Source: Veillonella magna DSM 19857
GTDB taxonomy: Bacteria > Bacillota > Negativicutes > Veillonellales > Veillonellaceae
DNA: 64,000 nucleotides
Reading direction: 5' to 3'
Assembly: GCF_000428745.1 (NCBI RefSeq)
Contig: NZ_KE386795.1
Coordinates: 332,692-396,691, forward strand
Part shown: piece after piece, positions 34,824 through 35,755 of the stretch
How the letters are laid out: the number at the start of each line of letters is the position of its first letter
Position numbering within the stretch: the stretch's first letter is position 1
Notes under the pieces: generated by a model
What the model was told of the DNA's origin: nothing
The model's database searches: none
The model's input: the letters and a program-made list of their open reading frames with translations, nothing else
Made by a program: the position numbers and the translations under genes

Positions 34824-35095
34824 GTTAGGACCTCCTAATACTTAAACGCATATTATATGCGGACATACACTTTATTAAAAGGATACCATATATCAAGCTA
34901 CAATGTAAATCTAGCAATACATGTATATAAAATTAGTATAATCGTTAGTTTCTTATCTCAATAGCGTATACCATTTATAACTTTATATAGTTCTATAATA
35001 ATTATTGTTAAGTAGGGAGTCCATCATGTATAATAGATTCGATAGATGTTAGCGACACATACTATACCTAGTACAAATAGAAAGAAGGTGACATT

Positions 35096-35593
35096 GTGCC
35101 AGATTCGTTAGGCCATCATTTACTTATTGACCTATATGCTTGTTTGGAGGATGCTCTGTCATCCCCTGTTATTATTCAAGAAAGTGTAACAAATGCATTG
35201 GAAGCAGCTAATCAGGAAATTGATGAAATAAGTTGCCAGGTGCTGGATGATGAAGTTGTATTATTAGCGGTTTCGCCGCATTGTCATGTGGCCGTTCATG
35301 CGTACCCGCATATGGGATATGCCGCGGTAGATATTTATGCCTTTGCTATTGATGTACGCTCTGCCCTTCTCATGAAGGAGTTAAAGCAAGCCTTCGGCGC
35401 AGAACGTGTTAAGGCCACCAGTGTACAACGCGGTGATTTTGGTTCCGAACGCGATATGAAGCCCCGCAAGCGAACCTCCCTTTCCCCAATGGCACGCGTG
35501 ACGCGTACTCGTACCAGTCTTAAAAAGACGGGTACCAAATTAAAAACGACGGGAGCCAAGGTATTCCGTGTAATTACTAAAAAAAATAAATAA
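35096..35593 (+). CDS. S-adenosylmethionine decarboxylase (SpeD)-like protein with altered active site
   Basis: A 165-residue protein starting at GTG behind GAAGGTG. Residues 5-117 align by eye with prokaryotic SpeD: G-H-H-L-L-I-D-L-Y-A-C, then H64-V-A-V-H68-A-Y-P-H-M-G-Y-A-A-V-D-I-Y. In Thermotoga SpeD the pyruvoyl serine is S63 inside E-S-H, with S55, H68 and C83 assisting. Here the matching positions appear to be C63 (preceded by H62), V55, H68 and F83. So the residue that becomes pyruvoyl is Cys, Glu62 is lost and the proton donor Cys is Phe. Residues 120-165 form an extra Lys/Arg/Thr-rich tail absent from SpeD. No speE is adjacent. It is probably not a normal decarboxylase; the real role is unknown, and the tail suggests nucleic acid or membrane contact. 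Confidence 0.75.
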   Translation: MPDSLGHHLLIDLYACLEDALSSPVIIQESVTNALEAANQEIDEISCQVLDDEVVLLAVSPHCHVAVHAYPHMGYAAVDIYAFAIDVRSALLMKELKQAFGAERVKATSVQRGDFGSERDMKPRKRTSLSPMARVTRTRTSLKKTGTKLKTTGAKVFRVITKKNK

Positions 35594-35607
35594 GACACTT
35601 TGAACTG

Positions 35608-35646
35608 AACCCCTTTCGTTAGACAAAATCTAACGAAAGGGGTTTT
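35608..35646 (+). terminator. Terminator of the SpeD-like gene
   Basis: A perfect 16-bp stem (35608-35623 and 35629-35644) with a CAAAA loop and a short T run follows 15 bp after the stop. Confidence 0.88.
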
Positions 35647-35664
35647 GTTATGTCAAGAAAAAGA

Positions 35665-35712
35665 AAAAGGACAGGCACCAGTACAGTTATCTGTAGTAGT
35701 GCCTGTCCTTTT
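35665..35712 (-). terminator. Terminator of the HAD phosphatase gene
   Basis: A perfect 14-bp stem (35665-35678 and 35699-35712) is followed on the minus strand by T4 and a T-rich tail. It lies back to back with the terminator of the SpeD-like gene. Confidence 0.8.
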
Positions 35713-35755
35713 ATATTATCCCTTTCTATGTTATGTCTTCCTATATTATGTTCTT
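35711..35755 (-). repeat. 15-bp imperfect tandem repeat, three units, after the HAD gene
   Basis: TTATATTATCCCTTT, CTATGTTATGTCTTC and CTATATTATGTTCTT (plus strand) lie between the HAD stop codon and its terminator. Confidence 0.6.

Follow-up and report, generated by a model that had tools for sequence, protein, structure and literature searches.

Introduction

The closest described relatives of the protein studied here are the class 1b AdoMet decarboxylases (SpeD; TIGR03330, PF02675), represented by the structures 1tlu, 1vr7 and 1tmi. SpeD has also given rise to SpeDA and SpeDC, arginine and ornithine decarboxylases that retain pyruvoyl chemistry (PMC10407285); that paper makes no mention of Negativicutes, Veillonella or Selenomonas. 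In trypanosomatids, a dead AdoMetDC paralogue of the eukaryotic two-sheet fold, the prozyme, acts on its active partner (PMC5201418). The E. coli-type class 1a SpeD (TIGR03331) belongs to the same superfamily.

Here we describe a SpeD-like gene of Veillonella magna DSM 19857, located in a window of 64,000 nucleotides, the whole stretch of DNA that was analysed. Like class 1b SpeD, its product has the fold in residues 1-113 together with H64, H68, D79 and R112-G113; unlike class 1b SpeD, it lacks S55, E62, Ser63 and Cys83, falls below the TIGR03330 cut-off and carries an extra conserved tail some 50 residues long. It resembles the prozyme as a dead AdoMetDC paralogue beside an active one, but the bacterial form persists without an active SpeD. 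It resembles SpeDA and SpeDC as an extra, neofunctionalised bacterial SpeD homologue; unlike those pyruvoyl enzymes, the tailed form is without the pyruvoyl serine in most members and without C83 in many. A class 1a SpeD is encoded on contig 10 of this genome (G000) and, in contrast to the tailed form, has 260 aa and an intact KSHLTVHTYPE site. Our search of the open-licence literature found no description of a class-wide tailed form, which does not by itself prove novelty.

Results

The window gene encodes a SpeD fold with an altered active site

The Pfam domain AdoMet_dc (PF02675) matched residues 8-113 of the window protein (E 1.4e-19, 70.8 bits), while the score against the TIGR03330 equivalog was 62.1 bits, below the cut-off of 75.65. 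In the AF2 model the core had a pLDDT of about 97, and the top Foldseek matches of the core were the T. maritima SpeD structures 1vr7, 1tlu and 1tmi (E 8e-11 to 4e-10). Against 1vr7, E was 7.8e-11 and TMt 0.88, with 28% identity in the structural alignment. These results demonstrate that the gene encodes a class 1b SpeD fold, and the fold motifs that the initial annotation had called clear are indeed so.

The first sequence alignment used T. maritima and B. subtilis SpeD sequences; the T. maritima family alignment was then redone with PDB sequences. Compared with T. maritima SpeD, the window protein carries S55 to V, E62 to H, S63 to C and C83 to F, and H64 and H68 are retained. The by-eye reading in the initial annotation (H-C for the E-S processing site, Val for Ser55, Phe for donor Cys83, His68 kept) was therefore exact. 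Where class 1b enzymes have the pyruvoyl-forming Ser63 after Glu62, the window protein has H62-C63, and of the catalytic pair His68 and Cys83 it has only His68, with Phe at 83. Nor does it keep the S63, H68 and C83 of SpeDA and SpeDC (PMC10407285), having C63 and F83. It does share with the prozyme type the dead active site of an AdoMetDC paralogue, and it belongs to the tailed family as defined here, namely proteins with RGDFGxxxDMKP and a cationic tail that fall inside the tail clade. Its nearest named relatives are found in Veillonella sp. R32, V. ratti, V. intestinalis and V. seminalis (73-75% identity), and the H62-C63 pair is common to V. ratti, V. seminalis and V. intestinalis.

The features of the locus are collected in Table 1. 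The intact frame, start signals and strong terminator described at first sight are all present.

Table 1. Features of the tailed SpeD-like gene and its surroundings (positions in the window)
Feature	Position	Strand	Basis
Tailed SpeD-like gene, 165 aa, GTG start	35096..35593	+	ORF, domain matches, orthologues
SpeD-fold core, residues 1-113 (V55, H62, C63, H64, H68, F83, R112, G113)	35096..35434	+	alignment, AF2, Foldseek
Codons 62-63, CAT TGT = His-Cys, at the E-S processing site position	35279..35284	+	sequence and alignment
Codon 83, TTT = Phe, at the donor Cys83 position	35342..35344	+	sequence and alignment
Class-specific basic tail, residues 114-165: DFGSxxDMKP, then predicted-helical cationic stretch	35435..35590	+	
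Shine-Dalgarno-like AAGAAGG, 5' of GTG	35081..35087	+	
Sigma-70-like promoter match TTGTTA-18-TATAAT	35005..35034	+	consensus match only
Intrinsic terminator, 17-pair stem	35607..35645	+	

A second long inverted repeat, AAAAGGACAGGCAC ... GTGCCTGTCCTTTT, lies at 35660-35715 of the window, immediately past the gene's terminator and between convergent genes. No riboswitch or other RNA family was detected at the tailed gene, all weak Rfam matches being far under their gathering scores. No conserved operon partner was found either; the neighbours vary among families and represent inherited synteny (ctsR-mcsA-mcsB-clpC, a FabK-like gene, a flavodiiron gene and rRNA; recD2-comF). In deep families (L089, L092, L101, L107) the gene adjoins the ctsR-mcsA-mcsB-clpC region, an rRNA operon or both, and many tailed-form matches lie close to contig ends, perhaps owing to this location.

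The tailed form is restricted to Negativicutes

We assessed the distribution of the tailed form with several profiles. The class was taken as Negativicutes from its named members Veillonella, Megasphaera, Dialister, Negativicoccus and Anaeroglobus. The order-level family profile matched 283 of 300 class genomes, and 223 of the 227 good ones. In the PF02675 search, 118 of 120 class genomes matched, and most had two matches, one to the short tailed form and the other to a long SpeD of the E. coli type. The tail-only profile matched all 14 class genomes searched; in 384 other genomes of the phylum it gave nothing apart from three weak matches (E 2e-4 to 9e-3). Within the phylum sample, this computation shows that the tailed form is restricted to the class. 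In its own genome the tail module occurred only at the window gene, and no relative was found among viral contigs. Two nearly complete genomes of one family (G466 and G536 of family f156; 100% and 99% complete) had no AdoMet_dc protein, tailed or canonical, and possessed both SpeE and NspC, so the tailed gene is not indispensable everywhere.

The active site was changed repeatedly under a constant tail

We read the active-site residues of 122 tailed sequences. In deep families E62, S63, H68 and C83 are intact, position 55 is Thr and the tail is the same. A large group carries Gly63, mostly with C83 retained, and in the window's own order site 63 is C, S, A, T, F or V and site 83 is always F. 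Site 63 was not Ser in 85 of the 122 members, being replaced by Gly, Cys, Ala, Thr, Phe, Val or His; site 83 was replaced by F, Y, L, I, N, Q, R, S, T or A. E62-S63-C83 is intact in at least 22 tailed members, which may still be enzymes.

In a tree built from 148 columns with the catalytic columns excluded, in which many forks are unresolved, the tailed forms made up a single clade (SH-aLRT 99). Parsimony on this tree gave at least 9 Ser/non-Ser changes at site 63, at least 13 Cys/non-Cys changes at site 83 and 2 at H68; on so short a tree these counts are approximate, and parsimony gives no direction. Loss of the active site is the natural reading because the deep members and the outgroup are intact. 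Judged from these sequences, the tail appears older than the loss of the active site, an order that the single sequence behind the initial annotation could not reveal.

One tailed Gly63 form (L107:6385-6837) scored 105.6 bits against the TIGR03330 cut-off of 75.65. It would be annotated as an adenosylmethionine decarboxylase on that score, yet Gly63 cannot yield a pyruvoyl group.

These data bear on whether the protein has remained an enzyme but acts on another substrate or by another chemistry, comparable to the ODC- and ADC-type SpeD homologues and working through Cys63 here or without a pyruvoyl group. The E62-S63-H68-C83 set of deep members, the retention of H64 and H68 in nearly all dead members and the neofunctionalisation of SpeD elsewhere (PMC10407285) are consistent with such an enzyme, and altered activity is conceivable for Ser63 or Cys63 members. 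However, S63, H68 and C83 are described as essential to self-processing of T. maritima SpeD and as expected in the ODC and ADC types (PMC10407285), whereas Gly63 members can form no pyruvoyl group and site 83 drifts across ten residues. We consider this explanation improbable.

Core and tail are under purifying selection

In the 85 members without Ser63, D12, C16, T108, R112 and P123 were conserved at 100%, D79 at 99%, H64 at 98%, H68 at 96%, G113 at 96%, D120 at 93% and D114-F115-G116 at 87-89%; Y14 was also retained. The persisting core residues are mostly conserved in active SpeD too and may only hold the fold. Residues of the processing and substrate side that are invariant or nearly so in canonical SpeD (about F49, G53, G56, E62, T69, E72 and G84, the last conserved at 90% in the canonical outgroup) are lost in the same members. 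The suggestion in the initial annotation that the protein possibly still senses AdoMet runs against this loss, and AdoMet binding as a retained function is disfavoured on the strength of residue conservation.

Computation of dN/dS showed that both core and tail are under purifying selection. Values ranged from 0.01 to 0.14 in nearly all pairs with computable dS, the highest being 0.16 (tail, L113/L117). The least saturated pair, L124/L155 (dS 0.28), gave 0.14 and 0.13; several other pairs are saturated. The eroded active site and the intact speD elsewhere in the genome might suggest a decaying relic of a redundant speD. This is extremely improbable for the window gene, which has its own RBS and terminator, and it is refuted for the family by retention in nearly all good class genomes, by the low dN/dS and by the conserved tail motif. 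The initial annotation had favoured repurposing over decay, and the near-universal presence in the class, low dN/dS, single clade and constant tail uphold it.

The tailed protein is independent of spermidine synthesis

A search of the V. magna genome for a normal speD and speE found both. The canonical SpeD on contig 10 scored 439.7 bits against TIGR03331 (cut-off 255.8) and is, by inference, the spermidine enzyme of the organism; speE lies on contig 20. As first noted, speE is not adjacent to the window gene, and neither is the canonical speD. A second protein with a spermidine synthase domain is encoded in the same genome (G000:C8:32357-32890), within a 506-aa open frame.

None of 30 class genomes searched with TIGR03331 yielded an E. 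coli-type SpeD, while the control genome G497 in the same set was positive. In those 30, any PF02675 match is single, and the tailed proteins read from 21 of them all have Gly63. A prozyme-type paralogue would be expected always to accompany an active SpeD; here the sole PF02675 match, where read, was the tailed form. SpeE and NspC were both present in 14 of the TIGR03331-negative genomes. In the three operons read (G330, G088 and G481), speE stands with a Lys/Orn/Arg-type decarboxylase, a carboxynorspermidine-synthase-like (CASDH-like) dehydrogenase and nspC, that is, the carboxyspermidine route; gene identities were taken from NCBIfam in L231 (G330) and L236 (G481), L235 being the locus of G088. 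In these 14 genomes (the three named and 11 others), speE is over its cut-off though no intact SpeD of any kind was found. Ten genomes without SpeE were sequence-checked, and 8 of them also lacked NspC (G500, G506, G524, G529, G530, G533, G542 and G568). These 8 have no recognised spermidine route and keep the dead, Gly63 tailed protein. Conversely, the PF02675 search included 20 genomes whose tailed form has an intact site, and each of them carries one or more additional AdoMet_dc matches, so a tailed form as the only intact SpeD was not observed. The computation shows that the tailed protein is independent of spermidine synthesis. The regulatory role that the initial annotation had entertained, if taken to act on the SpeD pathway, is contradicted as a general function, since the protein persists where the pathway is absent.

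The same results weigh on a prozyme-like role, in which the dead paralogue would pair with the E. coli-type SpeD and tune its activity. Both genes occur in the window genome and in most relatives, and there is a precedent in trypanosomes, where AdoMetDC is activated by its dead paralogue (PMC5201418). But the canonical partner belongs to another class (1a), the tailed gene was not adjacent to speD in the loci read, and the dead form persists in the 30 genomes without a TIGR03331 match, which argues against such pairing as the general function; we give it little credence. For the family, decay and a general prozyme role are both excluded, because tail and core are under purifying selection and Gly63 forms persist without another SpeD.

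The tail is a conserved cationic module

Tails average 42 residues with a net charge of +9.6 (range 5 to 20), and the core is near -2. The layout is RGDFGxxxDMKP followed by a cationic amphipathic stretch, the commonest form across families being DMKPKxKxxxxPLRRVxNTGAKVxxxLxR. The basic tail pointed out in the window protein comprises residues 114-165 with a net charge of +14, and both motif and cationic stretch are kept across the class.

Helical amphipathicity exceeded that of self-shuffles at p<0.05 in 72 of 122 tails, related tails not being independent; the window's own tail was not significantly amphipathic against shuffles (p 0.17). By the HeliQuest formula, for which the cut-off is 1.34, D was 1.9-2.8 in nine tail stretches, a value driven by charge. 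In the window tail AF2 predicted, with low confidence, a strand (124-128) followed by a helix (131-163; pLDDT about 57-70). For a Gly63 orthologue the prediction, likewise of low confidence, was a strand at 124-129 with a shorter helix at 138-147 (pLDDT 48-66). Hydrophobic positions recur in the tail with helical spacing across families. Most likely, the tail acquires structure upon binding something.

One possible but tentative explanation is that the tail targets nucleic acid instead of a membrane, namely RNA or DNA (ribosome, rRNA or nucleoid), and that the core is a non-catalytic scaffold. The Lys/Arg-rich composition, net +5 to +20, would suit such binding, as would the position of the deep-family gene between ctsR-mcsA-mcsB-clpC and the rRNA operon, though this may be only inherited synteny. 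On the other hand, the helical hydrophobic pattern across families is unneeded by a plain RNA-binding tail, and a Pfam search found no known nucleic-acid-binding domain. The recurrence of hydrophobic positions slightly favours a membrane over nucleic acid.

Discussion

The reading that we prefer, with moderate confidence, is that the tailed protein is a pseudoenzyme: a non-catalytic binding protein of SpeD fold, held through its tail at an anionic surface that is most likely the membrane. The ancestor of the class would have gained the tail while its active site was still intact. The job depending on the tail may then have become the selected one, and the active site would have eroded repeatedly afterwards. 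The pyruvoyl cofactor would no longer be made, and the protein would work by binding. On the model of T. maritima SpeD, the core may dimerise and could bind a ligand or partner through the fixed residues D12, C16, H64, H68, D79, T108 and R112. Attachment to the anionic surface, probably the inner face of the cytoplasmic membrane, would be through the RGDFG-x3-DMKP linker together with the cationic amphipathic stretch that follows.

Negativicutes attach diamines to peptidoglycan as anchor sites for the outer membrane (polyaminated peptidoglycan, OmpM; PMC10628300). The pseudoenzyme could conceivably be a membrane-docked envelope or polyamine-related factor that is class-defining for these diderm Firmicutes, for example one sensing or presenting peptidoglycan diamines; we regard this more specific role as unlikely, the envelope link consisting of a shared taxonomic range only.

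Vpar_0438, annotated as an AdoMet decarboxylase proenzyme, falls 18-fold on coaggregation (PMC6529473). We set this aside as evidence on the tailed gene, as the fall could belong to either of the two genes, tailed or canonical, and the gene number suggests the latter. Essentiality data for Veillonella were not found in the literature searched.

From a pyruvoyl enzyme, evolution appears to have made a non-enzymatic protein, which is retained by nearly all of a bacterial class. Its active site was lost repeatedly, and several stages of the loss persist among living lineages. For some tailed genes, such as the high-scoring Gly63 member, the automatic label of AdoMet decarboxylase is mistaken, and in tractable Veillonella the tailed gene is a clear target for gene removal.
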